Assembly: GCF_018780385.1 (NCBI RefSeq)
Contig: NZ_JADMJO010000033.1
Coordinates: forward strand, 62,001-126,000
Direction of reading: 5' to 3'
Source of the DNA: Hydrogenophaga sp.
GTDB lineage: Bacteria > Pseudomonadota > Gammaproteobacteria > Burkholderiales > Burkholderiaceae_C
Length of the DNA: 64,000 bases
A program made the position numbers and the translations under genes. This document shows, one piece after another, positions 10,082 to 32,880 of the stretch (its first letter is position 1; the number at the start of each line of letters is the position of its first letter). The notes under the pieces are model-generated. The model made no database searches, was not told the DNA's origin, and worked only from the letters and a program-made list of their open reading frames with translations.

Positions 10082-10645
10082 CTACGTGCGACATCCCGTC
10101 TTGGTCGGATCGCAGCGGCGGATGCGGCCCGAGTTGGAGTAAACCACTGCAGTGGCACGACCTTCGGGCAGGTAGAACACCACGCTCCCTCCGAGAGCGC
10201 CATCGGTGGTGGTGCGGGGAAAGCCCGCAGGATTGAACATCAGGTAACCGTCCGCCACCGTGCCACGGTCGTCCAGATCATCGTCCTCCTCGCCGTTGTT
10301 CATCACGCCATCGGGGGCCGGTCCCTGCTCGACGACCAAAACGTCGGTGTCCGCCGTGTAGGCCATGTCGCGGTCGATGTCGGCGTACACCCGCCAACCC
10401 CCGACCCAACCCAGATCTTCATTCGTCACCTGCACCAGCGTGTGCCGCGACAAGCGCATGGCGTTGGCCCGGGCCAGTTGCGCTGCGTTGACGAAATTGC
10501 CGGTGACCTGGGCGACAGCGGCATTGCGGGCGAAGGTCTGGTAGCTCGGCACGGCCACCACCATCAACACTGCCGCAATCGAAAGAGTGACCATCAACTC
10601 GATGAGCGTGAATCCGGCAGCGGCGCGGCCTCGTTGTTCCGTCAT
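10082..10645 (-). CDS. fimT: GspH/FimT-family minor pilin, pilus operon 1
   Basis: Type IV prepilin-like protein with a short positively charged leader ending in glycine and then FTLIELMVTLSIAAVLMV, so it should be cleaved by the prepilin peptidase and has Glu5. 187 residues, with a GspH-like C-terminal domain (YLMFNPAGFPR and a late cysteine pair). The start ATG at 10645 overlaps the pilE stop as ATGA. In the two other operons the FimT gene comes first; here it is last. Role inferred from family: priming or tip minor pilin. Confidence 0.82.
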   Translation of the reverse strand: MTEQRGRAAAGFTLIELMVTLSIAAVLMVVAVPSYQTFARNAAVAQVTGNFVNAAQLARANAMRLSRHTLVQVTNEDLGWVGGWRVYADIDRDMAYTADTDVLVVEQGPAPDGVMNNGEEDDDLDDRGTVADGYLMFNPAGFPRTTTDGALGGSVVFYLPEGRATAVVYSNSGRIRRCDPTKTGCRT

Positions 10646-11118
10646 GGCCAGCATGGTTTCAGGGCTGTTGAAGAACTGTTGCAGCGCCGCCGCCCCAGGC
10701 TGTCCACGGCGATCTCGGCGGCAGGGGGGTCGGCCAGCGCGGTGGTGCGAGGCACTGCAAACACCTCGATGCAGTCGCGCACTTCGGGCGTTTCTCCGCC
10801 CACGGCCTGGCACTCGCGCGCTCCGAGCACATGGCTGGCGTCCGCCACGTTTCCCGAACTCGCGGAATGGGTGCGAAACGGGGTGCTGGCCACCCCCGCT
10901 GCGAAAGGCCCCAGGTAAGTGTTGTTCTGTGTCAGGTGGCGTTCTTGCTGTTGCATGAGGTTTGCCAGGGCCGCTCTTGCCTCTGCCCGACGGCCCTTGC
11001 GCACCGATTCCAGGTAGGAGGGGTACGCCAGCGCTCCCAGGATGCCCACGATCGCAACCGTGATCATGAGTTCGATCAAGGTGAAGCCTTTGTGGTGGTG
11101 GATCGTCCCCGCCTTCAT
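10642..11118 (-). CDS. pilE: PilE-like type IV minor pilin, pilus operon 1
   Basis: 158 residues with leader MKAGTIHHHKG, cleavage after Gly, and mature start [28 protein letters not shown] (quoted in part), which has Glu5 and the PilE-type PSY segment. Later cysteines (RECQ, RDCI, RRCN) could form the pilin disulfide. It overlaps the pilY1 stop by ATGA upstream and the fimT start downstream. Such PilE genes next to PilY1 encode minor pilins rather than the major subunit. Confidence 0.85.
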   Translation of the reverse strand: MKAGTIHHHKGFTLIELMITVAIVGILGALAYPSYLESVRKGRRAEARAALANLMQQQERHLTQNNTYLGPFAAGVASTPFRTHSASSGNVADASHVLGARECQAVGGETPEVRDCIEVFAVPRTTALADPPAAEIAVDSLGRRRCNSSSTALKPCWP

Positions 11119-14100
11119 GGCGCAATATCCCGGTGGTTGTGAACCTGGCGCCAGCTCATCCGGCCAACCTGCAAGGTAATGTCGAACTGGTTCGATTGAG
11201 CCGCCGTTCCTTTGGACCCCTGCATCAGGACACCCATGCGGTAGGTCGCCGTGCGACGCCCGCTGGTGCTGCTGCCCGAGACCACGGCATTGCCCCTTTC
11301 CAGCACCATGGGCCCACCCGGCAGACCTACACCGGAGTCCCATGAGGAGCCGCGGCCGGTCAGCACGTCGATATTGAAGCCACGGCCACCACCGTCGCCG
11401 CAAGTGCCGCCCGACGGGCTGAGTGTCGTGAAAATCAGGATCCCACGATCGAGCTGCATCTCTGTCACCTGCCGCTCGCCGGCCGTGCTGGAGAAGTCCA
11501 GCACCCAGCCCTCTCTTTGGCTTTCAGCCGTTCCGTATTGGAAAGCTTCAATGTTCACCGCGCCCAGGGTGTTGATGCTGGCACTTTGCAGACGGCTGCG
11601 ATCGGTGATCGTGCTTGAACTGTCCAGCAGCGCATAAAGCGATGCAGGCGGCGTGGTCGGTGCGCTGTTGTCGGTGACTTCAAGGAACTTGCCAGTGCCA
11701 ACCACAACAAGCCGTTTCCCGCTGAATCCGGTGGCCGCCACCGGTGCCGACGTGATGGGCTGGCGTTTGTCGGTAGAACTCCTCGCTACAAACATCGGGT
11801 TGCGATTTTCGCCCATGGCGTTGACCTGTTCCAGGTTGCTCAATCCGTCGGTAGTGAGGGTGCTGACGCCTTGCTCGCGAAACGACAGGTTCCACACATT
11901 GCCTTGCAGATCACCGGCAAGAATGGCCTCCAGGTTGCCGCTTCCCGGCGTCTGGACGGTTGTGATCTGGATCAAACCCGGCGCGGTGGATGCATCTCCG
12001 GGCGGCAACTCGATGCGCCAGAAGTTCACCCCCTCCTGCCACGGTCGGGACGACGAGGGCTTCGCTTCAAGGTCGATCAGGAAGATCGAGGGATTGGCGT
12101 TGCTGTTGGTGTTTGCATCGCTGCGGTGGTTGTTGACGCCACCGGGCACGATGGCCATCCATTTGTAGGAATCCGTTCCGGCACCAGCGTCGTTCATCCG
12201 CACGCGCGCCACCCGTGGTTTGCCAAGAACATTGCCCAGCGCGGGATGATCTGCGTCCGTGAACTCCCACAGCACGTTGTCCTTGGTGAACCCATCGGGA
12301 TCAGTGACATCGATGGCGAAGATGCCTTGCGCACCTGCGCCTGCACCCGACACCAGCACGCTGCGCCATTGGCCTTCGATCTGGGCCTCTGCTGCTGTGG
12401 GCGTGGCATCCAGCAAGGGGCGGTGGACATAGTTGACGTCGGTTATTGCATGGAGGCGTGGGACGAGAAAGCCCGGGATGTAGGCAAACGCCTCGCTACC
12501 GTCGTCGGCTCGGAAGGCATGGAGCATGCCGTCGTTGGCATTGGCAAACACCACGGGCGTGCGGGTCTTGTTGGTTTCGCGGAAGGCGGCGTAGCCCGTT
12601 CCGCTCAACGTGGGAGTGGGTGCGCCTTGGTACACCAGACCTGCGTTCACCACGCTACCCAGTACCAGCTGGCGGGGACGGAATGGCAGCAAAAGGTTGG
12701 ACCGGCTCTGTTCCTGGCGGCGATCACCCCGCAGGTAGTGCAGGCGGTCCGAGCCCAGGCTGTCGGCGGTGCCTGACGGGTCCCGGTTCAGTGCACTCTT
12801 GTGCGCTGAAGCCAAAGAGCCATCCCACACAAACGGAGAGGGATCCAGCGTGCCCTGCTGCCCCAGGGGAGCGCCCACCACGATGTTGCGATCAGCGCCA
12901 TGGTCAGCCCGCGTGCGCAAGGTCAGCATTTCTGCTGCATCCCATTCGGGGGTGTTTGCCACTGTGACCACTCCTGTGCTGGACGAGAGGCTCAAGGCAA
13001 ACTTGCGAACCCTGCCGCTCCAGTCGTTGGATTCCGGGTTGAAGCTGCCTTGAAACACGGCGGCGGCCTCGTCGCTGCGCAGTTGCTGGGACGAAGCTGC
13101 TCCGCCGGCGATGCTCCTGGTTTCAGTGGCCAGTGACCGGAAGACTTCAGCGATGGAATCCAGGAAGGTTTGCGGATCGCTCACCACGAAGTAGTTCCGC
13201 GCATCGCCATCGGCACGTTGCCAGGATAGATTTTCGCCCGATGCGTAGGGACTGCCCGTATTGCCAGTGAGGCTGTCGTCGAAGCCGCCATATTTGGCCG
13301 CCAGAAAGAGCTGCGTGCCTCGACGCAGGGTGGCGTTGGAGCCAGTGGTGTTGTAGGAGTTGACGTCGATGGAAAAGGTGCTGATGCGGGCCTTGGGCAG
13401 ATCTGTGCGGAAGCTTTGCGTGTTGGCGAAATGCGCCAAACCAGCCATCAAGTAGGAGCCCGTCGACTCAACGACGACGTTGGTCGCGATGTTGGACAAA
13501 TCCACACGGTAGGGATCGTTCAGTGAAATGTTGAAGGCTTTTTGCGCTTTACCGGTGCTGTCGGTGTAGCTCACCCCCAGGTTGGCTTCAAACGAACCCA
13601 CCACGTTGGTCCACTTTTCCACGTCAAGTGGCACAGGCTCTTCTTCAGAGGCTCGAATGCCGTCGCCGCCGCGTATCTTTTTGTTGCCTGGCAGGTAGCG
13701 ATCGCCGTGCGTGAAGGCATCGGCGATGGCCAGTACGTTGTTGCGCAGGCAACTGCGCCCTTCTCCCGTGTTGTCTTTGAAACCCGTAAATGGGTCCGTC
13801 CACGTCCGGTACGCAGGAAAGTTTTCCGCCAACGATCGGTCACTGGCTGACGTGCCGCTGAGTCCGGCGGTGGCCAACGGCGTGGGCTGTTGGCCCTGCA
13901 GATAGCGGAAGGCCTCGTAGTAGAGCTCGCTCAAAGGGTCCCAGTCCTTGGTCGTGCCGAGTGCATCGGGATCGAGAGCGCTGAAGCCGTTGATGTAGGT
14001 GATGGCGCCCGACTGGCCATAGCCCTGATCGCCGTAGTCGGCGTGGCCCAACTGGGGATTGCGGTTGAAAACCCCGGTCACGGAATCCCATTCGCTGTGT

Positions 14101-15149
14101 GGATTCGTGGCGGCCATCAGATCGAAATTGGCATCGAACTGCTTCGAGCCGAGGTACTTCAAAGGTGTCCGCATCACACCGCCGTAGCGGAAATAGTTGT
14201 CGTCGTTCAGGTAAGAGAAAACACTCACCCGAACGTTGTCGGAGTTGACCTGGAATTGCCCGACAGGTTTGAAAAAGGTACCACCGCTGGCGTTTTGGTA
14301 TGGAAAGCACAGGCCGCTCCAACGACGGGTCGTCTGGTTCTGGAGCATCGGGCGGTTGGCGGCGCTGTTGGCATCGCACACCATGACGCGGGTTAGGTAA
14401 AACCGCCCCTGAGAGGTATCACCATGCCTGACCAGCCGGTCACTTTGGGCGTTCGCAACACCAAAGGGATTCAGGCAATCCGTGCCCCCGTCGTTCTCCT
14501 TGGCGAAATACACCCGGTTGATGCAATTGCGGATGAAAATGCCATCTGTGAATTCACTGGCCGCAAAAGGTGTGCGCAGTGCGATTTGATCCGTGCGAAG
14601 ACGCTTCAAGGGGAAGAATGGCCCGGAGTACGAAGAACCAGGCAGATAGGCCCTCTCGAGGATGGTTCTGCCAGCGCCTGTGCCTTCGTCGAATACACGG
14701 GTCCCTCCCGTCAGGCCGTACCGCATGATGTCGATGGCCGACGTGGTGGCCCAATTGAGAAAGTTGCCATCGAACGACTGGCCGCTAGGGCAGGCTGCAT
14801 CAATGGTGCTTTTGGCGCTGCTGTAGGAAAAGTACTCGCCAGTGATTCCACTGGCTGTGACATTGGCGTAGCAAACCATGTGGTCGTAGTAGCCGATGTA
14901 CTTTCGATTTGGATTGAAATCGTTGAGATCGCCGGGGGAGGATGTGTAGGCAGATCCTAAGGTAGGCGTTTCCACCGACAGGGCCAGTATGAGGTTGGCC
15001 TTGGCCTTCGATCCGTTCAGGTACAGGGGATCGTTGGGCAGCGAAACCAAAGGCGTAGTAGTGGTCTCTTGGTTGAATGCCAGGCCTGCCACGGTGGCCA
15101 CTGCTACGCAGAGCACGATGCCCCAGACTTTTCGAGCGATGTTCGCCAC
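11115..15149 (-). CDS. pilY1: PilY1-type pilus tip protein, operon 1 (no visible metal site)
   Basis: Large exported tip/adhesin-type protein, 1344 residues, with an N-terminal signal segment (WGIVLCVAVATVAGLAF) and a C-terminal beta-propeller containing the family signatures ANANDGMLHAFRADDGSEAF, IFAIDVTDP and GDLQGNVWNL. The N-terminal half shares YYDxxxCY and FLNWATTSAIDIMRYGLTGG-like segments with the operon 3 protein, not with operon 2. No DxSxS MIDAS is seen, and the place just before GDLQG, where the other two copies have an EF-hand-like loop, reads TPGSGNLEAILA with no aspartates. C-terminus ends in MSWRQVHNHRDIAP. It starts three bases beyond pilX. Confidence 0.88.
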   Translation of the reverse strand: MANIARKVWGIVLCVAVATVAGLAFNQETTTTPLVSLPNDPLYLNGSKAKANLILALSVETPTLGSAYTSSPGDLNDFNPNRKYIGYYDHMVCYANVTASGITGEYFSYSSAKSTIDAACPSGQSFDGNFLNWATTSAIDIMRYGLTGGTRVFDEGTGAGRTILERAYLPGSSYSGPFFPLKRLRTDQIALRTPFAASEFTDGIFIRNCINRVYFAKENDGGTDCLNPFGVANAQSDRLVRHGDTSQGRFYLTRVMVCDANSAANRPMLQNQTTRRWSGLCFPYQNASGGTFFKPVGQFQVNSDNVRVSVFSYLNDDNYFRYGGVMRTPLKYLGSKQFDANFDLMAATNPHSEWDSVTGVFNRNPQLGHADYGDQGYGQSGAITYINGFSALDPDALGTTKDWDPLSELYYEAFRYLQGQQPTPLATAGLSGTSASDRSLAENFPAYRTWTDPFTGFKDNTGEGRSCLRNNVLAIADAFTHGDRYLPGNKKIRGGDGIRASEEEPVPLDVEKWTNVVGSFEANLGVSYTDSTGKAQKAFNISLNDPYRVDLSNIATNVVVESTGSYLMAGLAHFANTQSFRTDLPKARISTFSIDVNSYNTTGSNATLRRGTQLFLAAKYGGFDDSLTGNTGSPYASGENLSWQRADGDARNYFVVSDPQTFLDSIAEVFRSLATETRSIAGGAASSQQLRSDEAAAVFQGSFNPESNDWSGRVRKFALSLSSSTGVVTVANTPEWDAAEMLTLRTRADHGADRNIVVGAPLGQQGTLDPSPFVWDGSLASAHKSALNRDPSGTADSLGSDRLHYLRGDRRQEQSRSNLLLPFRPRQLVLGSVVNAGLVYQGAPTPTLSGTGYAAFRETNKTRTPVVFANANDGMLHAFRADDGSEAFAYIPGFLVPRLHAITDVNYVHRPLLDATPTAAEAQIEGQWRSVLVSGAGAGAQGIFAIDVTDPDGFTKDNVLWEFTDADHPALGNVLGKPRVARVRMNDAGAGTDSYKWMAIVPGGVNNHRSDANTNSNANPSIFLIDLEAKPSSSRPWQEGVNFWRIELPPGDASTAPGLIQITTVQTPGSGNLEAILAGDLQGNVWNLSFREQGVSTLTTDGLSNLEQVNAMGENRNPMFVARSSTDKRQPITSAPVAATGFSGKRLVVVGTGKFLEVTDNSAPTTPPASLYALLDSSSTITDRSRLQSASINTLGAVNIEAFQYGTAESQREGWVLDFSSTAGERQVTEMQLDRGILIFTTLSPSGGTCGDGGGRGFNIDVLTGRGSSWDSGVGLPGGPMVLERGNAVVSGSSTSGRRTATYRMGVLMQGSKGTAAQSNQFDITLQVGRMSWRQVHNHRDIAP

Positions 15150-15152
15150 GGC

Positions 15153-15743
15153 TTACTCCTTGCGAAAGAACATTTGCAGCATCACCTGGATTTCCTCGCG
15201 CGGGCCGAAGCCCACGGCCGTGACCCGGTACAGATTGCGCGGAGCGCCCTCGTTGCCGCCAGGTGTGGGGTCGGGGATGAGTTCGATGAGATAACGCGGT
15301 GTCCGCGCGGGCTGCACGCCACTGGTGCCCGCCGCGTACTGCCGGCCTGTGTAGTCGCCAAAAGCCACGGTGCGGTTGGTGTCCGTGAAGCTGACGGTTG
15401 ACCAGATCGGGCTTTCGCCGGCGCTCGCGGGCAAACACATGCCCACGGTGGTGCTGCCGGTGCTGCACCCCTCTTCGAAGCCAGCGATGGAGGTGGGGGA
15501 GAAGAGGCTCGAGCGGGTGGAGCCCGGGCCCCGGATGTCCAACTCGGCGTCGAGCAGGGCCGCTTCGGCGGCCTGGAATGCGATCAAGCGGTCACGGTCG
15601 TAGCGGCTGCTGCGTTCGGACATGAGGACCAGTTGGGAAGCCGCGACCCCGAGCAGACTGGCGATCACCAGCAGCACCAGCGTGGCGATCAGGGAAAAGC
15701 CCCGCTCGCGCTTGGCGGAGGAATGCGTGAAGGGCCGCTTCAT
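15153..15743 (-). CDS. pilX: PilX-type minor pilin, pilus operon 1
   Basis: 196 residues. Leader ends RERG and the mature protein begins FSLIATLVLLVIASLLGV, with Ala at position 5 instead of Glu, as is usual for PilX/GspK-like minor pilins, which cap the pseudopilus tip. The helix is followed by the PilX signature IAFQAAEAALLDAE. The start overlaps the pilW stop as ATGA, and pilY1 follows. Confidence 0.85.
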   Translation of the reverse strand: MKRPFTHSSAKRERGFSLIATLVLLVIASLLGVAASQLVLMSERSSRYDRDRLIAFQAAEAALLDAELDIRGPGSTRSSLFSPTSIAGFEEGCSTGSTTVGMCLPASAGESPIWSTVSFTDTNRTVAFGDYTGRQYAAGTSGVQPARTPRYLIELIPDPTPGGNEGAPRNLYRVTAVGFGPREEIQVMLQMFFRKE

Positions 15744-16753
15744 GGCATGGTCAGGTCATTGCGCAAATGCACAGTGAAGCTGTGCAATGTGCGTAAGCGC
15801 CCATCGGCCGGAGTCACCAACACACTGCCAACATCGTTGACATCAGCGAAGGTGGTGCCCAATGGCCAGAAGGTCTTGGCGGCGACTTCGACAGCAGAAC
15901 CGACAGGACCGCGGACGACCAAGCCGACACGCACGGCCCGAACGCGCCGCCAGTTGGCTCGTGTGGCGGAGGCATCACCTGCCACCGTGAGCTGGTCGGC
16001 GCGCAACCAGCGATCGGCCACACTGTCGTTGGTGTTTGCCGCTGGTGCAACCCCTGGTTCCACCGCATCGGTGCCATACAGCACCTGAAAACTCTCGACA
16101 CCTTCTACCAGTGGCCTTGAGTCTTTCCAGGCACCGCTGTAGGTGGCGCAGCTCAGCGAGGCTTCACCGCTGTCGCTGTTTCTGGACACGTGGAAAAGGC
16201 TGATCGACCGTTCTTCAAGCTTGGCAGTGGGGGGCGCTGCTTCGGCACCCCCACCGCAGTTGAGCATTGTGCGATCACCGGTGGCAGCGTTGCTCGCTGC
16301 GCTCATGCCTTGGAACCGGATCACCAGAATGTCGCTGCCGTTGAGGCAGGTCGTGGTGGTGTCGCTGCCGCATTTGTCGGGTCGATCGTCGTTGGTGATG
16401 TCGGTGCTGGTGCTCAGCTTCTGGTCGGACGGGACGGCATAGAACGCGTTGTCCCAGCCAAAAATGTCGGGTTCGAGGTCGATCGCGGAGTTCTGAAGCC
16501 GCGCCACCGATTGCAGGTTGGCTTGTGGGTTTCCCCAGTCCTCATAGCCAGCTTGAAGGATCACCGACGTCAGCAGTTCGGTGGCCAGGCGCACCTTGTC
16601 TCGGGCCGCCGAACCGTGGTCCACCGCATTGAATCCCCGACTGGCGCTGAAAAGAAGCCCGATGGCCACGAGCACTAGAAGCAGACCCAGGGTCATGGAC
16701 ACCAACAGTTCGACCAGCGAAAGGCCGCGTTGCTTGATGCGGGTGCCTTTCAT
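15740..16753 (-). CDS. pilW: PilW-type minor pilin, pilus operon 1
   Basis: 337 residues. Leader ends KQRG, mature start LSLVELLVSMTLGLLLVLV with Glu5. PilW proteins join PilV and PilX in the priming complex that starts pilus assembly and presents PilY1. The internal part holds a Cys-rich segment (RPDKCGS, TTCLNGSDI) and the C-terminal region ends in HSFTVHLRNDLTMP. Overlaps pilV upstream and pilX downstream by ATGA. Confidence 0.85.
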   Translation of the reverse strand: MKGTRIKQRGLSLVELLVSMTLGLLLVLVAIGLLFSASRGFNAVDHGSAARDKVRLATELLTSVILQAGYEDWGNPQANLQSVARLQNSAIDLEPDIFGWDNAFYAVPSDQKLSTSTDITNDDRPDKCGSDTTTTCLNGSDILVIRFQGMSAASNAATGDRTMLNCGGGAEAAPPTAKLEERSISLFHVSRNSDSGEASLSCATYSGAWKDSRPLVEGVESFQVLYGTDAVEPGVAPAANTNDSVADRWLRADQLTVAGDASATRANWRRVRAVRVGLVVRGPVGSAVEVAAKTFWPLGTTFADVNDVGSVLVTPADGRLRTLHSFTVHLRNDLTMP

Positions 16754-17349
16754 GACGCACTGCCCGCTGTGACCGGGATCACAACAAGTGGGCTGGATGC
16801 AGCCGATCCAAAAATCAAGGTGCCTTTGGTGTTGATGCGCGTCCAGGCGATCTTGGCCACCAACACATCACCCGTGTCGTCGCAGTCCCATTCGGCTGCG
16901 CCAGTGGTGGCGTGAAAAGGGGTGCTGTCAAAGCAGATGCGAACGCGCGGAGAGGGCAGCTCGGACTGCAGCCGCCCCATCCATTCATGGACCTGCCATT
17001 GCGCGTTGCTCAGGCGTTGCGCGTCCGTGTTGCCGGAGCACGTGTCCACCCGACAGTTGACCGGTGGCGCTACCAAGGCTCCCGAGTCATGGTCGATCAA
17101 GTAGGGATTGGCCGTCGGCAGGGTATTGAGCGCGACCCGGTGGTTGCCACGCATGGCTTCGGCCAATTCCCCGGCCAGCGCGGCGGCGACCACTTGGTAG
17201 CGCGTCTGCGTGTTGGCTTGCAACGCTGCCGCCTGCATGCCCGCTGACCCCAGCATCCCGATGCTCAGGATGATGATGGTGACCAGGACTTCAATCAGGC
17301 TGAAGCCCGCTTGGTGCGTGCATGGGGATATGTGAGGTGCTGAGGACAT
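16750..17349 (-). CDS. pilV: PilV-type minor pilin, pilus operon 1
   Basis: 199 residues; leader ends HQAG, mature start FSLIEVLVTIIILSIGMLG with Glu5, followed by the typical PilV pattern of AxLQAN and ELAEAMR. It is the first gene of operon 1, preceded by a 176-base non-coding gap after pilE of operon 2. ATG at 17349 is preferred to the in-frame GTG two codons upstream because the conserved leader GCTAGAGTG..GGC runs directly up to the ATG. Confidence 0.83.
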   Translation of the reverse strand: MSSAPHISPCTHQAGFSLIEVLVTIIILSIGMLGSAGMQAAALQANTQTRYQVVAAALAGELAEAMRGNHRVALNTLPTANPYLIDHDSGALVAPPVNCRVDTCSGNTDAQRLSNAQWQVHEWMGRLQSELPSPRVRICFDSTPFHATTGAAEWDCDDTGDVLVAKIAWTRINTKGTLIFGSAASSPLVVIPVTAGSAS

Positions 17350-17400
17350 GCCCACACTCTAGCTTCAAAAATGAATTTTAAAGTGGCATAGGTTGGCAGC
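17350..17400 (-). promoter_or_regulatory. Conserved leader/promoter region of pilus operon 1
   Basis: Read on the minus strand, this gap has CTGCCA, six bases, GCCACTT, TAAAATTCA and then GCTAGAGTGTGGGC directly before the pilV ATG. The same blocks in the same order and almost the same spacing precede fimT of operon 2. TAAAAT could be a -10 element, but I find no good -35 at 16-18 bases. Conservation in front of different first genes argues for shared control. The rest of the gap to 17525 shows nothing recognisable. Confidence 0.45.
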
Positions 17401-17525: not shown

Positions 17526-17954
17526 TTACCGGTTCCAGCACTCCATCGGCCCCAGCGGAACTGGCACCTCGACGGTAGGAGCTTGCGCTCTTGTGCCAGC
17601 CTGATCGGTCCGGAAGGACGCGCACCGGTCACTTGACTGAGCAGCATTGGGCGTCGCCGTCAAGGTGTAGCCAATGCCGTTGGAAACGGCAACGATGTTG
17701 TAGCGCCCACCCTCGACGAACAGCACGCCGGGTGGAATGGCGGCTGTGAGCGGGTAGGTGCCTTGCGCCGTGGCGGTGCGCTCCATCCACTGGGCAGCCT
17801 GCAAAAGCGCCGCGCGTGCATTGGCGCGGTGGCTTCGCATCACATACTCGTTGTAGCTGGGCAAAGCCACCGCCGCGAGCAACGCCACCACAGCCACCGC
17901 GATCATCAGTTCGATCAACGTGAATCCGCGGTTTGGGCGGCGGAAACAGGACAT
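17526..17954 (-). CDS. pilE: PilE-like type IV minor pilin, pilus operon 2
   Basis: 142 residues; leader [10 protein letters not shown], mature start [19 protein letters not shown] with Glu5, then [21 protein letters not shown] cysteine pair (RCAS and MECW) sits near the end as in pilin disulfide loops. The ATG overlaps the pilY1 TGA as TGATG. An upstream extension of the frame lies inside pilY1 out of frame and is not coding. Confidence 0.85.
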
Positions 17955-20900: not shown

Positions 20901-21319
20901 ATCATGAAGTGAGAGGGCGTGCCTCGCACGATGGCGATCGAATCGACCCAGTTGAAGAAGTTGGTTCGGTGTTGCCCGGCAAGTCGTCGCATGCCGTTGT
21001 ACCCTCGGCAGATGCCCGTGGTGCTGGTGCTGCTTCCGGGAATGGTGTTGCAGCCATGCATGGATTGCCATGCCAGGCGGATCTGGTCGTCGGGAAGGTT
21101 GCTCGCGGCGAAGGTGGTTTTGAGCGCGGTGCGCAGTTCGGCAACCCCGGTGGAGCCCATGCTGGTGGAGTTGTCCACCGAGACGATGATGTTGGGCGCC
21201 GGGTCCCGGGCCAGTGTGGGTGGTGCCTGAGAGAGCAACAGGGGTGCCGCCACGACGGCCTGACTGAATCCGGCGATGGTCAGAGCGGCAGCGCGCGGGG
21301 TGAACGTAAAGGATGGCAT
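17954..21319 (-). CDS. pilY1: PilY1-type pilus tip protein, operon 2 (VWA/MIDAS type)
   Basis: 1121 residues, the shortest of the three. After a signal segment the protein has a von Willebrand A-like domain with an intact MIDAS motif D48-N-S50-T-S52 ([13 protein letters not shown]). The C-terminal propeller has [27 protein letters not shown] and an EF-hand-like loop D782-L-N784-A-N786-G-M-I-D790 just before [11 protein letters not shown]. The C-terminus ends [11 protein letters not shown]-bearing PilY1 proteins are known as mechanosensitive adhesins and c-di-GMP signalling factors in Pseudomonas; the role here is inferred. It follows pilX by 15 bases. Confidence 0.9.
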
Positions 21320-23962: not shown

Positions 23963-24014
23963 GCCGGCACTCTAGCAGGCATGTTTGAATACTTAAGTGC
24001 CGAACGGATGGCAG
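23963..24014 (-). promoter_or_regulatory. Conserved leader/promoter region of pilus operon 2
   Basis: On the minus strand: CTGCCA, seven bases, GGCACTT, AAGTATTCA, then GCTAGAGTGCCGGC up to the fimT ATG. It is the counterpart of the operon 1 leader (12 of the last 14 bases identical, upstream blocks conserved with one- or two-base spacing differences). Further upstream the minus strand is AT-rich with TATAGT at 24044-24049, a possible -10 that lacks a convincing -35. Confidence 0.45.
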
Positions 24015-25279: not shown

Positions 25280-25752
25280 CGCCAGCAAGCGGCATCTTGT
25301 GCAGCCGTGGTGGGCGCCGCATCTTTGGTTCCTCGTTGATCCAACGTGAGCGTGCCACAGGTGGTGTCCCCCGCTTGCGGACCTCCGGGCACGGCCTGCA
25401 TTTGATAAGCGTTGGTTGCTGGAGCCGCGACAAAAGAGAAGGTATAGCTGGCACCAAGCTCGGCACGACATCCCAGCGCTGGTAGCTGCGCGGAGGTTAC
25501 GGCAGTTGCACATCCCGTGCCGGTGGTGTTGTAGGCAAGGCATGTGGTGTAGTTGCGCTCCATCCACTGGGCCAGTTCCAGCATGCAGCCTGCAGCCACC
25601 GCACGGCGCGTTTTCAGAACGTGTGATTGGTAGGAAGGGTAGGCAATGGACGCGAGGATGCCCACGATGGCCACAACGATCATGAGTTCCATCAGTGTGA
25701 AGCCTCGCTGGCTCCCGACGGATGCGAGAGTGCTGATGCGACTGGGTTTCAT
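25276..25752 (-). CDS. pilE: PilE-like type IV minor pilin, pilus operon 3
   Basis: 158 residues; leader ends GSQRG, mature start [19 protein letters not shown] with Glu5, followed by [20 protein letters not shown]. Cysteines at TTCLAY, TGCATA, GCRAE and a pair near the C-terminus (TTCGTL, AACW) suggest disulfides. It lies 45 bases beyond pilY1 and overlaps the ribD GTG. Confidence 0.86.
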
Positions 25753-25797
25753 GGGCAGTGTCCAGCGTTGAATGTGTGTGTCAGTGAGGCCATGGTA

Positions 25798-28700
25798 TCA
25801 ATCCCGAACGATTTCCCGCCAGGACAGTCGGCCCTTGAGCGAGCCTGGACCTGAGTTGGGGCCGCCACCGCCAGGGATATTGACGCGAACGTCGTCAACT
25901 ATGCCCTCCGATCCACCGACGGCAAGGCGGTCGCCCACCAAGATCACCTCGCCCGGCATACCCACTCCCAGGTCGATGGATCCGATGTACGGCTCACCCG
26001 TCCCACCCGTCCCACCCGTCCCACCCGTCCCACCCGCGACATCATCGAGGAAATCACCGTTGTCGTTGACGTCAAAGAACGGAAAAGTGAGGCGAGCGCA
26101 AGTGAACGGATTGACGGCGTTCAGGAAGCCAATGCCACCTGATACACATTGATCGATCACCGGAATGATCGAGCTCCCGATCAATGTGGTTTCCGCAAGC
26201 GAGAACAGCCGCGAAGACGAAACCATTCTCTCGCCGGCGGCAGGGAGATCGATAAAACAACCCCTCTTGCTGGCCATGTCGCCTGCGGCGGATGCCTCGA
26301 TCACCCGAACGGGTTTGCCAGCAAAGGTGGAGCTTGCAGATATGGTTCTTTGGACCAGATCGGATCGCACCGGCGCAGATAGCGTCGCGCTCTCGTCGAT
26401 CACGCTGTACCAGGTCTGGGCGTCTGTGTTGGTGGGGTCTCCGGTCTGGAAGTAGCTGCCGGTGCCAAAAAACACAAAGCGTTTGGTGAAGTTGATGTCG
26501 GTCGACACGTTGTTGGTGGCCACGGTGATGGGGGCTGTGATCGGTTGGCGTTTTCCGGCCGAATCACTGGCCACAAAGATGGGTAGACCGCCGTTTGCGA
26601 TGCTCCATGACGCTGTGGTTGAACTGGAAACATCAAACTTCCACAAGTTGCCCTTCAGATCGCCCGAGTAAATGACATCCACCAGGCCATCGTTGTTGGA
26701 GTCGAACAGGCCTGGAGTGGCCATCCCGTTGTCGCTGCCGGCGAGCGTGTCGAACTTGCGGATAACCGCACCTGTGGCGAGGTCGAGGATGTAGAGCACG
26801 GCACGACCATTGGTGCTGTTGTAGCCGTTGCCCACGATCACAACCCAGGTGCCGCCGTTCATGCGCGCAATGACGGGGCGGCCCAGCATGTACCCCAGGT
26901 CTCCATCCGTTGTTCCGTTGAATCTCTCCCATTTGATGTCCGTGGCGCTGAAGCTAGTGGGAGTCGAGACGTCGAGCGCAAACAGGCCTTTGCCACCGCG
27001 TCCCAGTGCGCTGACCAGATAGTTGCTGCTGAGGCTGGGAGCTTTGCTCGACACGGCGATATCTCCATCAACGTAGTACTCGTGGGCAACGTTGAAATTG
27101 GGATCCGCCAGGTTCTTGAGTCTGGGCATCACGCTGCTGGGAATGTGCGCGAAGAGTTCGGTGCCCGTTTTTGAGTCGAAGGCATGCAGCATGCCGTCAT
27201 TGGCGCCCACATAGACCGTGTTCGTGTCCTTCACGAACACGGGAGAGGAATGGGAAATGTCACCGAGAACCGTCGTAGACGCACGGTCACGCAGTGCGCC
27301 GCCGTTCTGAATTTCCGATGTTCTTACCCCTGTGACGTAGTCGAACAGCGTTTCATTTCCGCTGAAGAGCGCTTTTTCAGTTGGGGACAAAGATCTCCAG
27401 GTGAAGATTTCCCCCTTGGTGCCCGAGTGGTAGTAAATTTTGCGCGCCGTTGCTGCCGGGATGCCTGCTGCAGCATTCCATAACGGGCTTGTACCGACAC
27501 CCGCAGTGCTGACAGGATAGGCCGCAAGGTCACCGGACCATCGCATGCTGTTGAAGGTGGCCTGATACACCAGCGCATCGGTGGAGAGCACCGTGCTGTT
27601 GGCAATGATGTTGCCACCGCTTCCGCTGCTCTCGATGATGTTGTCGAAAGCGCGCTTCAATGCCTCGCGCAGTTTCAACGGGTTCTGCACCAGAAAGTAG
27701 GTGTCGGGCACGCCGTTGTTGTCTGCATCCCACTCCAGGCGCAGATTGGGTGCGTCGATGTTGTCCCGATTGATGAAGCCGCCGTACTTGGCGGCATACC
27801 ACAACGGGTCGCGCAAAAGACTGGCGCTGCTGCCGTCGGGCGTGAACACATAGGGTTTGACGGGCGAGCTGATGGTGGGCAACGTGGAACACGCCGACGG
27901 TGGCGTGGCCACATCGCAGTAGCCTGGATCGCGCTGAACCGTGTCGAAAGGAACGTTGAGGAAGTAGCTCGGCGCGCTGCTCTCATCCCGGGCGACCAGG
28001 TACACGCCGTCCTTGGTGGTCCCGGAGATCACATAGCCCATCACCTGTTGAATGCCACCAGCCTGGTAGGTGGGCGTTACCGTCACCGACAAGGTGTTGT
28101 CCACATTGGCTTGCACCACGTACCTGGCGATGGCGTCCATGTCGTGGTCGCCGCCTTGTTCCACGTCTTCAAAGTTGATCAGGAACTCCGCGTAGTAACG
28201 ACCACCATTGATACTGGTATCGAAGACGCTTTTCGTGTCTTTGGGGTCACTCGCGTTGGCGATGGTTTCGACAAAAAAGTCAACGATCTGGTTGGTGGGT
28301 TGATAGTCACCCTTCGCTGCCGAGATGCTCGATCCGGAAACCGATTTGGAAAAGGGCACGACGTTGATCGATTTGCCGTTGGGGAGCCAGGCTTCAATGC
28401 GTGGCAGCGGTGAACTCAGCGCCACCACGTAGGTGTCGATCGACTGCTTGTCCTTCAGGGTCGGACGCAGGTCGGTGGTCTTGGCATGGTAGGCCACCGA
28501 GGCCGAGTAGTAGCTGCCCTGCTTGGTCGGCTCCTCGGGCGCCAGGCCGCGGATGGAGCCCAACGAAGTGACGGTCTTGGCGGTGGGCGCTGCGTCGTAG
28601 CTGGACGCGAGAGCACTTGACTGTCCAATGAAGCGCAATCCTGTGATGTTGGATTCGACCGAAGTGATGGTGTTGCCGCGTGTGGAAACGTCGAGGCCTG

Positions 28701-30150
28701 TCAGATCTCCGGTGTAGCTGTTGAAGACGCTGCCAGGCACCGAGTCTGAGTCGAACGACGGGTTGATGTCCGAAATCGCCAGGAAGTTGGCCCGTGAGCA
28801 GTAGGGCGCATTGGCAGCGCTGGTGCTCTCATAGGGATCGTCCCAGGTCACGCTGCTCAGGCCGACCTGCGTGTCCATCGTGCTGGAAACGTTGAAACTG
28901 CTGGTGGGCGTCTTTGTACCCGAGAAGTATCGGGTAGCCTCGTACATCATTTCGGCGATCGGGTTGCCCCAGTCGACGAGCTGTCCTTCCGTGGCAGCCT
29001 TGGCCGAGTCCGCGTATGGACTGGATTTCCAGTACTCACCATTGCTGGTACTTTGGTTGAAGCCGCGGATGCGCAGCGCGTTGAACGTGTTGACGATCTT
29101 GGCGTCCACCAAAAACTGTCCGGTGTTTGGGTTGATTTCGTTGGCAAACGAAGACACCACTTTGCGCAAGCGCCCGCCCGACATGTGCTGGTCGTAACTG
29201 CCACCCAGCAAACCGAACAGCATGCTCTCGTTTTCACCGTATTCGTGGAGCAGTCCGAATGGCTTGTAAGTCTTGACAGTGCCGTTGACGTACTCCTTGC
29301 AGTCGGTCATGAATGTGCCGACGCAAACCTTGGCACGCACGGTGAAGTTCTGCTCTGCGCCCGTGCCTGTGGGGAACGCGCCCGATGCCAAGGTGTCGTG
29401 CAGGACAGGGCGTTCCTTGGACGCCCATTCATAGACACGCTTGTTGTCACCGACCTCGGTGCGGATGCGCAGGAGTGGTGGCAGGTTGCTGCAGTTGTTC
29501 AGGGTGGCGCAGCTCACATCCCGGTTGGCGGTCAGGTTGCCAAAGAAGTGCCGCTTGGTGGTGGCGGTCGGCTCACTAAGCGGCGTGTAGTCGCCGATCT
29601 TGTAGCCGTGGCTGCTGTGATACTCCTTGCCCCAGCTGTGGGCGTCCTGCGGGATGTAGCTGCGCCTGAGGACCGTTTCGGTGGTGGTATCCACATCACG
29701 CGTGCCACCGTAAAGCACCTTCTTCAATGCATCGATCCGGCTGGTGGTGATGTAGTTGAGCCAGTTGCCTGACCAGCGCCCGGGGCTGTCTCTGAAACTG
29801 CACACACCCGCTACCGCGGTTGCAACGGGCTGGAACAGCTCCTGGTTTTTGTCGGTGTTCGTAACGTACTGGTAGCAAAGCTTGGAGTCGTACAGGCCGT
29901 AGTATTCAATGCCGGGTTTGAAGTGGGTGTCCAGCGTGCCGTCACCGTTGATGTCACTGGCGTCGTTGTAAGCCTCGTAGAAGAACTTGTGATCCTTGCT
30001 GGCGACCAGCATGGTCATGGGGCGGGCACTGACCGTGGCACCCAAGGGCTTGGATGGCCAGATGAGGGCGCTGACGCTCAGATTGGTCGTGGCGATGGCC
30101 ATCACGGCCAGCACCTTCAATCCCAGATTGCAACGTTCAAACGCATTCAT
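25798..30150 (-). CDS. pilY1: PilY1-type pilus tip protein, operon 3 (two EF-hand-like loops)
   Basis: 1450 residues, the largest copy. The N-terminus has a signal segment and then an EF-hand-like loop D66-I-N68-G-D70-G-T-L-D74, before IEYYGLYDSKLCY and WLNYITTSRIDALKKVLYGG, features shared with the operon 1 protein. No MIDAS is seen. The C-terminal propeller has VYVGANDGMLHAFDSKTGTE, ALDVSTP and a second loop D1150-S-N1152-N-D1154-G-L-V-D1158 before GDLKGNLWKFD. A Gly-Gly-Thr repeat occurs near residue 1375, and the C-terminus ends LSWREIVRD. It starts 18 bases after pilX. Confidence 0.9.
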   Translation of the reverse strand: MNAFERCNLGLKVLAVMAIATTNLSVSALIWPSKPLGATVSARPMTMLVASKDHKFFYEAYNDASDINGDGTLDTHFKPGIEYYGLYDSKLCYQYVTNTDKNQELFQPVATAVAGVCSFRDSPGRWSGNWLNYITTSRIDALKKVLYGGTRDVDTTTETVLRRSYIPQDAHSWGKEYHSSHGYKIGDYTPLSEPTATTKRHFFGNLTANRDVSCATLNNCSNLPPLLRIRTEVGDNKRVYEWASKERPVLHDTLASGAFPTGTGAEQNFTVRAKVCVGTFMTDCKEYVNGTVKTYKPFGLLHEYGENESMLFGLLGGSYDQHMSGGRLRKVVSSFANEINPNTGQFLVDAKIVNTFNALRIRGFNQSTSNGEYWKSSPYADSAKAATEGQLVDWGNPIAEMMYEATRYFSGTKTPTSSFNVSSTMDTQVGLSSVTWDDPYESTSAANAPYCSRANFLAISDINPSFDSDSVPGSVFNSYTGDLTGLDVSTRGNTITSVESNITGLRFIGQSSALASSYDAAPTAKTVTSLGSIRGLAPEEPTKQGSYYSASVAYHAKTTDLRPTLKDKQSIDTYVVALSSPLPRIEAWLPNGKSINVVPFSKSVSGSSISAAKGDYQPTNQIVDFFVETIANASDPKDTKSVFDTSINGGRYYAEFLINFEDVEQGGDHDMDAIARYVVQANVDNTLSVTVTPTYQAGGIQQVMGYVISGTTKDGVYLVARDESSAPSYFLNVPFDTVQRDPGYCDVATPPSACSTLPTISSPVKPYVFTPDGSSASLLRDPLWYAAKYGGFINRDNIDAPNLRLEWDADNNGVPDTYFLVQNPLKLREALKRAFDNIIESSGSGGNIIANSTVLSTDALVYQATFNSMRWSGDLAAYPVSTAGVGTSPLWNAAAGIPAATARKIYYHSGTKGEIFTWRSLSPTEKALFSGNETLFDYVTGVRTSEIQNGGALRDRASTTVLGDISHSSPVFVKDTNTVYVGANDGMLHAFDSKTGTELFAHIPSSVMPRLKNLADPNFNVAHEYYVDGDIAVSSKAPSLSSNYLVSALGRGGKGLFALDVSTPTSFSATDIKWERFNGTTDGDLGYMLGRPVIARMNGGTWVVIVGNGYNSTNGRAVLYILDLATGAVIRKFDTLAGSDNGMATPGLFDSNNDGLVDVIYSGDLKGNLWKFDVSSSTTASWSIANGGLPIFVASDSAGKRQPITAPITVATNNVSTDINFTKRFVFFGTGSYFQTGDPTNTDAQTWYSVIDESATLSAPVRSDLVQRTISASSTFAGKPVRVIEASAAGDMASKRGCFIDLPAAGERMVSSSRLFSLAETTLIGSSIIPVIDQCVSGGIGFLNAVNPFTCARLTFPFFDVNDNGDFLDDVAGGTGGTGGTGGTGEPYIGSIDLGVGMPGEVILVGDRLAVGGSEGIVDDVRVNIPGGGGPNSGPGSLKGRLSWREIVRD
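25995..26036. repeat. 9-bp tandem repeat inside pilY1 of operon 3
   Basis: Unit CACCCGTCC repeated four full times plus six bases, perfect throughout. On the coding strand it encodes (Gly-Gly-Thr)n. Because the unit is a multiple of three, copy-number change would alter the length of a flexible linker near the C-terminus without breaking the frame. Confidence 0.9.
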
Positions 30151-30168
30151 GTTCTAACTCCCAAAAAT

Positions 30169-30705
30169 TCAGTCCGTGCCGTACACCGACTGCAACATGA
30201 CAGCGGCTCGGTCGTTCCCCGCATTGCTGCGAGCGGTGATGCGGTAACGTTTGCAGTTGGTGGCGGCGCTGGCGTTCTGGGCACACGGAAAGGTGTTGCC
30301 CAGGTATTCGATGAAGTACTGCGGGGTGACGCTCAAGGCGCCGCTTTCCACGGCGGTGGCTGTCTGCCAACCGGTGAAGGTGGCATCCTGCCAGCGCGGC
30401 GTGGCAGTGGACACCGGTGTGCTGCACACGCCCGCAGTGCAACCGCTCAGGGCCGCGGGCGTCGGAATCGTTGTCTGCACGATTCCCTCTGCCTCGCGCA
30501 GTGCCGCTTCGGCGGCTTGGAACGATACGCTTCTGTCAAAGGTGTGAGCGGTCATCTTCTCTTCGAGCGTGACCGTGCGCATGGCGCTGAGTCCCACCAG
30601 CGTCATGACGACGAGCAGGATGAGGGCAACGATCAAAGCCACACCGCTTTGGCGGCGGCGTGATGCTGGACATTGGCGGGACGGGTTGCGCATGGTTTTC
30701 ATCAC
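30169..30705 (-). CDS. pilX: PilX-type minor pilin, pilus operon 3
   Basis: 178 residues; leader ends RRQSG, mature start VALIVALILLVVMTLVGLS with Val at position 5 (no Glu5), then MTAHTFDRSVSFQAAEAALR, the PilX hallmark. Cysteines at SGCTAGVC and later at FPCAQ, TNCK. Start ATG at 30705 overlaps the pilW stop as ATGA. Confidence 0.87.
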   Translation of the reverse strand: MMKTMRNPSRQCPASRRRQSGVALIVALILLVVMTLVGLSAMRTVTLEEKMTAHTFDRSVSFQAAEAALREAEGIVQTTIPTPAALSGCTAGVCSTPVSTATPRWQDATFTGWQTATAVESGALSVTPQYFIEYLGNTFPCAQNASAATNCKRYRITARSNAGNDRAAVMLQSVYGTD

Positions 30706-31775
30706 GACGATCGATTGCGCAGGTTCACCACATGGATGAGCTCGCGCGATACGGGCTGCTGGTTGGTGCCCAGCACGTTGACGGTTTCAAGCACGAGACG
30801 CATGCGCACGGCAATGACTTCGTTGGCCGCGGCGGTGGACCAATCGGTCGCGGCTGTGGCCACCGACCACGTTGTGTCCAGGTTGCTGGTCGCCTTGTTG
30901 CGGAACAGGTAGTCAATCTGCATGTCGACCACGCCTTCGGCAATTTCATCGAATGCGTCCAGCGGCCCACTCGATGGCGGCGGGCTGATGCGCCTGACGC
31001 GAAAGAGCGAACGCCCGCCCCGTCCGTTGTTCCCGACGTACCAGACGCCAACATTCAAGGGGGTGACGAACCCCCCTTCCTTGAAGGTCTTCCCGGTCCC
31101 AAGGCTCGTGCAGACCGTGGGGAAACCCAGACCCTTGCTGCAGTTGCCCGGGGCGGGACTGGAGACGCCCGTGTTGTGCACGATGGTCGTGTTGGTTCCC
31201 GGTGATGAGTTGGTGATCTGCAGCACGGCTGCGGAGTCCGGGTCGCACACCATCACGATCATGCCCTCTGCCAGGCCATGATTCACCGTGGCCATCTCAA
31301 GCGAGGCAGCCGTCGGGTTGTGGTTGGTGATGACGGGGCCATCCTGCTCGTCACTGCTGAACACCAGAATGGCGTCGGTGCCTGCGACGCGCTCGGTGGC
31401 CGCCGTTCCCGTGGCCACAATGCCGGTCGCTGCTTGAGTTTCATCAAATCCACGGACCGTGCCGGCTTCCAGGCTGGACGACCACTGCGTCGCCTTGTCA
31501 TTGAGCACGTTGGCCACTTGCTGTGCTCCACAGGGGTTGCCGCCTGCCTGACGGATTTCCCGCGCCATCAACTCGAACGAAATACGTGCATTCTCTTGCA
31601 GTCGGCCGAGGTTCTCGTTTGTTCGAAAGGACTGCTGGTTCGATACAAAGACGCTGATCACTCCGCCGATGATGACCAGTCCCAACACCATGGCGATCAT
31701 CAACTCGATCAAGGTGTAGCCAGTTTGCTTGCGCAGTCGCATCATCTGGGGCGCGGGGGAGGCGGAGGAAGTCAT
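30702..31775 (-). CDS. pilW: PilW-type minor pilin, pilus operon 3
   Basis: 357 residues, longest of the three PilW copies. Leader ends KQTG, mature start [19 protein letters not shown] with Glu5, then LGRLQENARISFELMAREIR, a strong PilW match. C-terminal RELIHVVNLRNRSS is the typical tail. ATG at 31775 overlaps the pilV stop; the open frame upstream is inside pilV. Confidence 0.87.
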   Translation of the reverse strand: MTSSASPAPQMMRLRKQTGYTLIELMIAMVLGLVIIGGVISVFVSNQQSFRTNENLGRLQENARISFELMAREIRQAGGNPCGAQQVANVLNDKATQWSSSLEAGTVRGFDETQAATGIVATGTAATERVAGTDAILVFSSDEQDGPVITNHNPTAASLEMATVNHGLAEGMIVMVCDPDSAAVLQITNSSPGTNTTIVHNTGVSSPAPGNCSKGLGFPTVCTSLGTGKTFKEGGFVTPLNVGVWYVGNNGRGGRSLFRVRRISPPPSSGPLDAFDEIAEGVVDMQIDYLFRNKATSNLDTTWSVATAATDWSTAAANEVIAVRMRLVLETVNVLGTNQQPVSRELIHVVNLRNRSS

Positions 31776-32275
31776 AGGCGGCTGGTGGTGGTTATGCGTT
31801 GCGCGGCCAGTCCGCCCGCGCGGCTGTCGTCCCAAGTGATCTGTACGGTACACAGGCCGCTCACATCGCAGTTGATGGCTGCGCATGTGGCATCCGTATC
31901 GCCCAGGCTGCGTTTGAGACTCACGATCCAATCCTTGCGATTGTTGTCGGCCAAAGTGGCGCCAGTGATGGATCCATCGCTGCAGACTGAGTCGATCACG
32001 CCTCCAGCGCCGACCGGCCCCGTGTTGTAGTTTTGCAAGATCGCGTTGGGTCGATCGGCGCGCATCGCGTCGAGCATGTAGTAGCTGAGCATCACGGCCT
32101 GACCCCGCGCATAACTGCTCTGATTGGTCTTGAGGGCGTTGGCCTGCAGACCTGCCATGCCGAGCAGTCCGAGTGCCAGTATGAGTACCGCGACGAGCAC
32201 TTCAATCAGGCTCGCGCCTTGCTGAAGCCTTTTCCGTTTGGCTGATGGCTTGAGGTGAATGCTGTATTTCTTCAT
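31772..32275 (-). CDS. pilV: PilV-type minor pilin, pilus operon 3
   Basis: 167 residues; leader ends RLQQG, mature start ASLIEVLVAVLILALGLLG with Glu5, then MAGLQANALKTNQSSYARGQ and MLDAMRADR, close to well-studied PilV proteins. The C-terminal Cys-containing ITWDDSRAGG segment is also typical. Overlaps fimT (ATGA). Confidence 0.87.
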   Translation of the reverse strand: MKKYSIHLKPSAKRKRLQQGASLIEVLVAVLILALGLLGMAGLQANALKTNQSSYARGQAVMLSYYMLDAMRADRPNAILQNYNTGPVGAGGVIDSVCSDGSITGATLADNNRKDWIVSLKRSLGDTDATCAAINCDVSGLCTVQITWDDSRAGGLAAQRITTTSRL

Positions 32276-32880
32276 GACAGAGGGCATGTGGCGGCGACGC
32301 TGGATGGTGTAGTCGTGAATAGGCGGCCTGTAGTGCTGATGTCAACATCGCGAGCCCGAGCCGCGTTGGACAGTGCTCCCGAGGTGTTGCAGACGCGTAT
32401 CCGACCGGACTGCGCCGTGCCGTTCATCAACTTGGGTTGGCCATCGGCAGCGTAGGAAACAAAGTCGTTCATGCCGGTGGGGCCTGCAAGCACAATGCCC
32501 GCCGCTGAAGCCGCGCCCGTGACCAAGATGACTTCGCCGGTGTCCACGGACGCGTCCGTACCCGCGCGAATGGGATCTGTGTACACGATCCAGCCTTGAG
32601 ACCAGTTGCCTGCGGTGGTGCACTGTGTCCCGTTGCTGCTCTTGCAGACGGTGACCCTTGATCCCCGTCGAATGGCCTCGCTTCGGGCGGCAGACAAGGC
32701 ACTCACAAGATCATTGGTTGTTGTGGTCAGCCGGCTGGAAGCGACGGCGGATTGGAAACTCGGCACTGCCACCGCCAACAGGATCGCCAAGATGACGACT
32801 CCGACCATCAGTTCGATCATGGTCACGCCGCGCTGGCGAAGCGGTGCACCGTTGGGTATGTGGGTAAGTGAATGTGTCAC
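32272..32880 (-). CDS. fimT: GspH/FimT-family minor pilin, pilus operon 3
   Basis: 202 residues from a GTG at 32880; no other suitable start precedes the leader, which ends RQRG. Mature start VTMIELMVGVVILAILLAV has Glu5, followed by SAARSEAIRRGSRVTVCKS, the GspH/FimT signature. First gene of operon 3, behind a 277-base gap that holds its likely promoter. Confidence 0.86.
   Translation of the reverse strand: MTHSLTHIPNGAPLRQRGVTMIELMVGVVILAILLAVAVPSFQSAVASSRLTTTTNDLVSALSAARSEAIRRGSRVTVCKSSNGTQCTTAGNWSQGWIVYTDPIRAGTDASVDTGEVILVTGAASAAGIVLAGPTGMNDFVSYAADGQPKLMNGTAQSGRIRVCNTSGALSNAARARDVDISTTGRLFTTTPSSVAATCPLS

Follow-up and report, generated by a model that had tools for sequence, protein, structure and literature searches.

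We analysed a 64,000-nucleotide stretch of DNA from Hydrogenophaga sp. (RefSeq assembly GCF_018780385.1, contig NZ_JADMJO010000033.1, positions 62,001 to 126,000; hereafter the window) that carries, in the interval between nrdR and ribE, 18 genes for type IV pilus proteins, all on the minus strand and arranged in three sets. The pilus genes were identified from the list of open reading frames (ORFs) together with Pfam scans of the window. Each of the three sets contains FimT/GspH, PilV, PilW, PilX, PilY1 and PilE, the full content of a type IVa tip operon, as a first-pass annotation of the same DNA had proposed. That annotation had also described the 18 genes as consecutive, a point that did not stand, as ribD (24122-25252) sits between set 3 and set 2 and breaks the run. 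We refer to the interval from nrdR to ribD as slot A and to that from ribD to ribE as slot B; the PilY1 types given in the following list are defined below.

33158..33607, minus strand: nrdR, upstream border of slot A (149-residue ORF with an NrdR-type sequence)
32272..32880, minus strand: FimT3, a GspH-type minor pilin, set 3 (PF12019 71.9 bits, N_methyl 32.8; GRIR at 159)
31772..32287, minus strand: PilV3, set 3 (N_methyl 24.7 bits; Tt1218-like 14.4, under cut-off)
30702..31775, minus strand: PilW3, set 3 (PF16074 34.5 bits, scored on a longer ORF to 31931)
30169..30705, minus strand: PilX3, set 3 (PF14341 60.7 bits, PF13681 58.6 bits)
25798..30150, minus strand: PilY1 of set 3, 1450 residues, type 3 (PF05567 168.2 bits; 3hx6 alignment)
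25276..25752, minus strand: PilE3, a ComP_DUS-type minor pilin, set 3 (PF16732 73.9 bits)
24122..25252, minus strand: ribD, divider of slots A and B (RibD_C 158.6 bits)
23411..23962, minus strand: FimT2, set 2 (PF12019 50.7 bits; GRIR at 171)
22809..23414, minus strand: PilV2, set 2 (PF22150 28.9 bits)
22045..22812, minus strand: PilW2, set 2 (PF16074 38.6 bits)
21335..22048, minus strand: PilX2, set 2 (PF14341 32.8 bits, PF13681 32.6 bits)
17954..21319, minus strand: PilY1 of set 2, 1121 residues, type 2 (PF05567 150.4 bits)
17526..17954, minus strand: PilE2, set 2 (PF16732 77 bits)
16750..17349, minus strand: PilV1, set 1 (N_methyl 33.9 bits; ATG start preferred to GTG at 17355 from leader comparison)
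15740..16753, minus strand: PilW1, set 1 (PF16074 95.5 bits)
15153..15743, minus strand: PilX1, set 1 (PF13681 57.6 bits, PF14341 54.6 bits)
11115..15149, minus strand: PilY1 of set 1, 1344 residues, type 1 (PF05567 101.3 bits)
10642..11118, minus strand: PilE1, set 1, in the other frame under a longer ORF (PF16732 44.7 bits)
10082..10645, minus strand: FimT1, set 1, last gene (PF12019 36.7 bits; GRIR at 173)
9346..9990, minus strand: ribE, downstream border of slot B (Lum_binding 145.5 bits)

FimT, PilW, PilX, PilY1 and PilE score above their Pfam cut-offs in all three sets, with PilY1 E-values as low as 3.7e-49. The PilV assignments are weaker, the N_methyl model being above cut-off for PilV1 and PilV3 and the Tt1218-like model for PilV2 only. 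All fifteen small proteins have a prepilin-type leader, the number first reported, with Glu at position +5 in 12 of them and Ala or Val in the three PilX; the leader of PilW3 (G/YTLIEL) was read by eye, the scripted pattern having missed it. PilE1 (10642-11118) occupies a different frame beneath an over-long FimT1 ORF (10082-11125), FimT1 proper being 10082-10645. The genes of sets 2 and 3 follow the order T-V-W-X-Y1-E and those of set 1 the order V-W-X-Y1-E-T, with FimT last. Neighbouring genes overlap by 4 bases at 9 of the 15 within-set junctions and the widest gap within a set is 45 bases, while the gaps at the borders are 23 bases (PilE3 to ribD), 159 bases (ribD to set 2), 170 bases (set 2 to set 1) and 91 bases (set 1 to ribE). 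The three sets are more than a chance assembly because of the PilY1 E-values, the 4-base overlaps and the presence of orthologous sets in other genomes. At an E-value of 0.001, the only PF05567 matches in the whole genome are the three PilY1 of the window. The G+C content drops to 58-60% across the PilY1 genes of sets 3 and 1 (26001-30000 and 13001-15000), with most flanks at about 64-68%.

Between the window's sets the PilY1 proteins are 27-34% identical, and each is 51-68% identical over its full length to its nearest relative in another genome. A PilY1 tree (133 rows, 671 columns, FastTree) places the three sets in three separate clades, that of set 3 comprising 16 rows, that of set 2 comprising 15 and that of set 1 comprising 21, each with a support of 100. 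Types 3, 2 and 1 were named after these clades; adding types 4-6 accounts for 84 of the 133 PilY1 rows. The gene order of set 1 is typical of its own PilY1 clade. Recent duplication, which the first-pass annotation had thought unlikely, is excluded by the tree and the identity comparison.

The other genes of each cassette follow their PilY1. Across the five families other than PilY1, 376 of 383 comparisons found the closest relative at another locus in a cassette of the same PilY1 type, whereas label shuffling gave only 14-15 of 72-80 per family; four of the seven exceptions are PilE genes paired between types 4 and 5. Cassettes therefore travel, and evolve, as matched blocks. All six genes of set 1 have their best full-length match in slot A of Polaromonas jejuensis (locus L139), at 39-59% identity, and fragments in the related genome G015 are closer still for PilV1, PilY1 and FimT1. 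A recent transfer of set 1 from Polaromonas is not claimed: the PilY1 proteins are 51% identical where ribD is 65% identical, which is no nearer than for type-3 PilY1 within the genus, at 64-65% where ribD is 70-73% identical.

In order to place the array in context, we mapped the six pilus families and nrdR, ribD and ribE, using profiles made from the window proteins, in 160 loci plus the window, among which 145 loci are distinct. The sample is non-random, consisting of 20 loci taken by their match to set-1 PilY1, 60 loci of the genus group taken around ribD or PilY1, and the 80 best ribD matches. The genus group is Hydrogenophaga in the GTDB sense (67 genomes), and at 16 of its loci the ribD protein is identical to named records, including Hydrogenophaga pseudoflava, H. 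flava, H. intermedia and H. borbori. Set-1 PilY1 alone, used as query against named genomes, gave 10 pattern matches, none of which was confirmed by tblastn; a second scan of named genomes used the ribD alignment as query. Nine of the 145 loci were dropped from the slot counts (L071, which is without ribD; L101; and L107-L113, which lie at other places in genus genomes), and the counts cover complete intervals, found at 44 of the 52 genus loci (the window among them) and at 42 of the 84 others. PilY1 was scored as intact when its frame reached at least 900 residues.

Among the 44 complete genus intervals, 32 hold one intact set, seven hold two, four hold none and one, the window, holds three. 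Expressed as intact PilY1 before and after ribD, these intervals are 1/0 in 26 cases, 1/1 in six, 0/1 in six, 0/0 in four, 2/0 in one and 1/2 in one (the window). The 42 complete loci outside the genus group are 1/0 in 32 cases and 0/0 in 10, and none of the 42 has pilus genes after ribD. A single set near the rib genes is normal, as the first-pass annotation had said; two are not rare in the genus; and three, which it had called unusual, were observed once (1 of 44 complete genus intervals, 0 of 42 outside the genus). Three PilY1 genes in one genome are not unheard of, because 38 of 399 sampled genomes of the wider family list at least three PF05567 matches (a hand count and an upper bound, some matches being split pieces); 325 of the 399 have a match. 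Four genus genomes have three PF05567 matches, the third match in G029 and G060 being one gene split in pieces. Genome G061 has two ribD and two ribE genes (contigs C57 and C83), the PilY1 of the C57 locus is nearly identical to that of Polaromonas loci, and this second locus (L101) is probably contamination.

Cassette content has turned over among the closest relatives. A tree of the nrdR, ribD and ribE proteins pairs the window with G029 (support 95) and joins both with G022, G015 and G055 in a five-member clade (99). These relatives do not share the three-set content, and three intact sets are found in the window only. The window has type 3 in slot A and type 2 followed by type 1 in slot B. 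G055 has type 3 before ribD and type 2 after it. In G022, type 3 is followed by a solitary PilE2 and by a type-2 cassette from another sub-branch; in G015, it is followed by PilE2 and set-1 fragments. G029 starts with a type-6 cassette in inverted orientation, after which come a gene resembling PilE2 and a PilY1 fragment grouping with type 5. The order in G015 is ribD, PilE2, PilV1 (residues 8-56, 84% identical), PilY1 (480-1019, 69%), FimT1 (46-186, 81%) and ribE, and slot B of this genome corresponds, in reduced form, to the set 2-set 1 array of the window. The set 2-set 1 array therefore predates the window genome and can be lost. Other decayed slot-B cassettes occur in G019 (PilY2 present from residue 344 on) and G044 (no PilY and a partial PilX). 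Type 2 is found in slot A (G001, G023, G024, G043 and G061) as well as in slot B, and types 1 and 6 are present in both orientations. The content, slot and orientation of the cassettes thus differ between relatives, which amounts to block replacement at a fixed locus. As a separate observation, a lone PilE2 stands directly after ribD in L056 and L054, resembling the scar of a lost type-2 cassette.

The three PilY1 proteins differ in their predicted metal sites. The C-terminal beta-propeller (PF05567) is present in all three sets, and the best solved match in each case is 3hx6, the propeller of Pseudomonas aeruginosa PilY1 (E-values 9.5e-38 for set 1, 9.2e-58 for set 3 and 1.9e-52 for set 2). 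The calcium loop of P. aeruginosa PilY1 is motif 1, Dx(D/N)xDGxxD (PMC13190605). PilY1 of set 3 has DSNNDGLVD at 1150, aligned to the P. aeruginosa loop and fitting the strict motif, and is without an N-terminal metal-ion-dependent adhesion site (MIDAS); that of set 2 has the loop DLNANGMID at 782 and a MIDAS, DNSTS, at 49; and that of set 1 has neither calcium loop nor MIDAS. Across the survey, the strict and relaxed calcium motifs were found, respectively, in 0 and 0 of 21 type-1 rows, 8 and 15 of 15 type-2 rows, 7 and 10 of 16 type-3 rows, 4 and 4 of 4 type-4 rows, 0 and 0 of 19 type-5 rows and 7 and 8 of 9 type-6 rows, and the strict motif was present in 14 of 49 untyped rows. The MIDAS (DxSxS, counted at the N-terminus of PilY1 frames of at least 900 residues) was found in 0 of 20 type-1, 9 of 14 type-2, 0 of 16 type-3, 0 of 4 type-4, 16 of 17 type-5 and 1 of 7 type-6 proteins. 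The window's three sets combine three different metal-site patterns.

With regard to the pilus machine, the genome has one PilM gene and seven T2SSE-type ATPase matches. Six of the seven were named: one lies above the PilB cut-off (803 vs 676 bits), one above the TfpB cut-off (871 vs 850) and three above the PilT-family cut-off (319), and one lies above no cut-off, its best match being GspE. One shared pilus, as proposed in the first-pass annotation, is likely because there is one PilM and one ATPase above the PilB cut-off. There are 22 N_methyl matches in the genome, 13 of them in the window's sets; the window's contig has no T2SSE or PilM match and no N_methyl match beyond the sets. In genome G000, pilin-like genes lie at the ends of contigs C11 and C16 (N_methyl at C11:124965 and C16:1), which may mean that the assembly is interrupted in the major pilin region.

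Taken from the sequence comparisons, it is likely that the three sets encode alternative tip and priming complexes for one type IVa pilus and were stacked by block exchange, and three working tips appear plausible. Block exchange explains the sets better than the unspecified divergence put forward before. In this reading, whole six-gene minor-pilin/PilY1 cassettes would be exchanged at the nrdR-ribD-ribE interval of Comamonadaceae, with usually one cassette in slot A and, in part of Hydrogenophaga, use of slot B as well. Each set would make its own complex of FimT, PilV, PilW, PilX, PilE and PilY1, each complex would prime the same PilB/PilM machine and end at the pilus tip, and the tip made would depend on which set is expressed, so that pili with different tips would result. 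The motifs predict that tip 3 is calcium-responsive at the propeller loop, that tip 2 probably is and that tip 1 is not, and that a canonical metal-binding von Willebrand factor A (vWA) head is confined to tip 2.

We weighed this reading against three others. The equal gene content of the sets and their head-to-tail arrangement would fit an ancestral set that was copied twice in place, its copies then specialising, but this account is highly improbable and was rejected: each PilY1 is nearer to proteins of other genomes (51-68%) than to its neighbours (27-34%), the three fall in separate clades, the order of set 1 is typical of its own clade, and nearest relatives of the other genes are of the same type. 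It is improbable, if less so, that the sets serve two filaments, for instance one pilus driven by PilB and another that is driven by TfpB or serves DNA uptake. ATPases above the PilB and TfpB cut-offs coexist, and all three FimT carry GRIR near the C-terminus; yet there is only one PilM, the window's contig lacks the further machine and N_methyl matches noted above, and in Acinetobacter baylyi a single pilus is extended by two motors, PilB and TfpB (PMC8213720). Nor is the FimT motif distinctive: of 175 FimT frames, 91 have G[RK]xR there, and the net charge of mature FimT1 is about -6. A DNA-binding role is assigned to one FimT in PMC9956873; given that frequency and that charge, we did not infer such a role for the FimT of the window. 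A more serious contender, though still unlikely, is passing accumulation, in which cassettes come and go by recombination, three happen to be present in this genome at the moment, and only one is in use while the others are being lost. The decayed slot-B cassettes of G015 (fragments), G029 (PilY fragment), G019 and G044 speak for it, as does the finding of the triple array in just 1 of 44 genus intervals. Against it, all 18 reading frames of the three sets are open and dN lies well below dS, although the G015 fragments look conserved too.

Sequence conservation favours alternative tips stacked by block exchange, and several points count against them. All three sets show fewer amino-acid-changing (dN) than silent (dS) differences per site versus orthologues, with dN/dS of 0.14-0.32 for sets 2 and 3 (dN 0.19-0.37, dS 0.77-1.68) and, for set 1 versus P. 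jejuensis, dN of 0.37-0.67 and dS from 0.97 to saturated; silent sites are close to saturation and dN/dS is rough. The low dN relative to dS speaks for past selection at the protein level and says little on the recent past, because the decayed G015 fragments give similar ratios (dN 0.09-0.23, dS 0.74-1.13). Position 5 of the calcium loop is Asn instead of Asp in set 2, and the strict motif is satisfied by set 3 alone. For the PilY1 N-termini of sets 1 and 3, AlphaFold2 models made from 8-row alignments had mean predicted local distance difference test (pLDDT) values of 32.7 and 33.1 and were set aside. The closeness of set 1 to P. jejuensis does not clearly exceed what vertical descent would produce. 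The trees come from quick runs (FastTree, and IQ-TREE with a short search) and contain long branches and four half-empty PilY1 rows that were flagged. TfpB, as a second extension ATPase, would allow for another filament.

Upstream of sets 2 and 1, sequence comparison identified two similar leaders:

23969..23999, minus strand: leader before set 2, CACTT..ATTCA..TAGAGT, 6 nucleotides ahead of the ATG, possible promoter
17356..17385, minus strand: leader before set 1, resembling the set-2 leader

The CACTT-ATTCA-TAGAGT blocks upstream of FimT2 and PilV1 end six bases from the ATG, and the alignment of the two leaders scores 38, versus at most 31 in 100 shuffles. When the set-1 heads of the window and G015 were compared with five post-ribD sequences of the clade, 5 of 10 comparisons beat all shuffles and 5 did not. 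The hexamer TANA[GA]T stands 5-7 bases before the ATG or GTG at 14 of 265 listed cassette heads and at 0 of 407 internal genes (256 of the heads are distinct, nine heads of L107-L113 being listed twice, without the hexamer). These 14 comprise seven slot-B type-2 heads, the lone PilE2 of G015 and of G022, set 1, two slot-A type-2 heads and two others; the hexamer is absent from the slot-B type-2 heads of G051, G009 and G065 and from the other listed type-1 heads. From this pattern, set 1 appears to lie behind a leader of the type-2 kind. A promoter/terminator scan of 16700-33300 found no excess over shuffles (2 vs 3.7; 11 vs 14.9) and did not pick the leader. We offer only tentatively, and as the less probable outcome, the idea that slot B is an expression-linked exchange site at which incoming cassettes are joined behind a shared putative promoter and a lineage switches tips. 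Under it, CACTT-ATTCA-TAGAGT would be a promoter giving an almost leaderless message and would stand before sets 2 and 1 and the slot-B heads of several relatives whatever gene follows; a tip acquired by recombination would come under the same control from the start, and one lineage could use the array to keep several tips and switch between them.

The fimU-pilVWXY1E operon of P. aeruginosa is present in single copy, and its gene order is that of window sets 2 and 3, while set 1 differs. Genomes with three PilY1 and genomes with cassette replacement are precedents for the window array. In Myxococcus xanthus there are three minor pilin/PilY1 clusters; either cluster 1 or cluster 3 supports pili on its own, and the complex primes the pilus and forms part of it (PMC7541494). 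The window resembles M. xanthus, which has one major pilin and one machine, in its three sets of minor pilins and PilY1, but differs in that its sets form a single 23-kb array, interrupted by ribD alone, and in that relatives vary in content at this fixed locus. Xylella fastidiosa has PilY1-1 to -3 and FimT1-3, together with PilE, PilV, PilW and PilX in two sets; the phenotypes of these paralogues vary and are mostly opposing (PMC9956873). Motif 1 occurs in just one of the three X. fastidiosa PilY1 (PMC13190605). Its genes lie mostly in operons in two genome regions, unlike the single array of the window, and its authors invoke duplication and neofunctionalisation, whereas the window sets are separate types with relatives elsewhere. 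In Acinetobacter baumannii, a type IVa pilus cassette (comC, fimU and pilV variants, with variant vWA heads) was replaced at least twice (PMC10374093). The tip genes are likewise replaced as an evolutionary cassette here; in A. baumannii, however, replacement occurred within one genus, while here sets are also added side by side, across genera and in two slots. Searches of the open-licence PubMed Central literature returned nothing combining pilY1, ribD and minor pilin and nothing combining Hydrogenophaga, type IV pili and PilY1; nrdR was not found alongside such pilus terms, and matches to exchange terms were on other subjects by title.

If block exchange of alternative tips is correct, the pilus tip would be a plug-in part, matched complexes being swapped across genera at one address while the machine stays fixed, and tip complexes could be collected side by side. 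The minor-pilin sets accepted by a given machine would become testable, and tip type could be tied to calcium and surface behaviour. The nrdR-ribD-ribE locus of Comamonadaceae would then amount to a natural collection of six or more tip types at one place.

Two further arrangements were seen in the survey. In L064 (G028), cassettes of types 4 and 5 are stacked in slot A, with PilE apparently swapped between the types. Cassettes of the form T-E-(T)-W-X-V or t-E-W-X-V occur at L104 in the genus and at L125, L143, L163, L169, L180, L184 and L186 in other Comamonadaceae; 0.6-1.6 kb lie ahead of V with no recognised PilY1, and L186 is also without a recognised X. Judging from their gene content, these cassettes may represent a PilY1-less or very divergent tip set.

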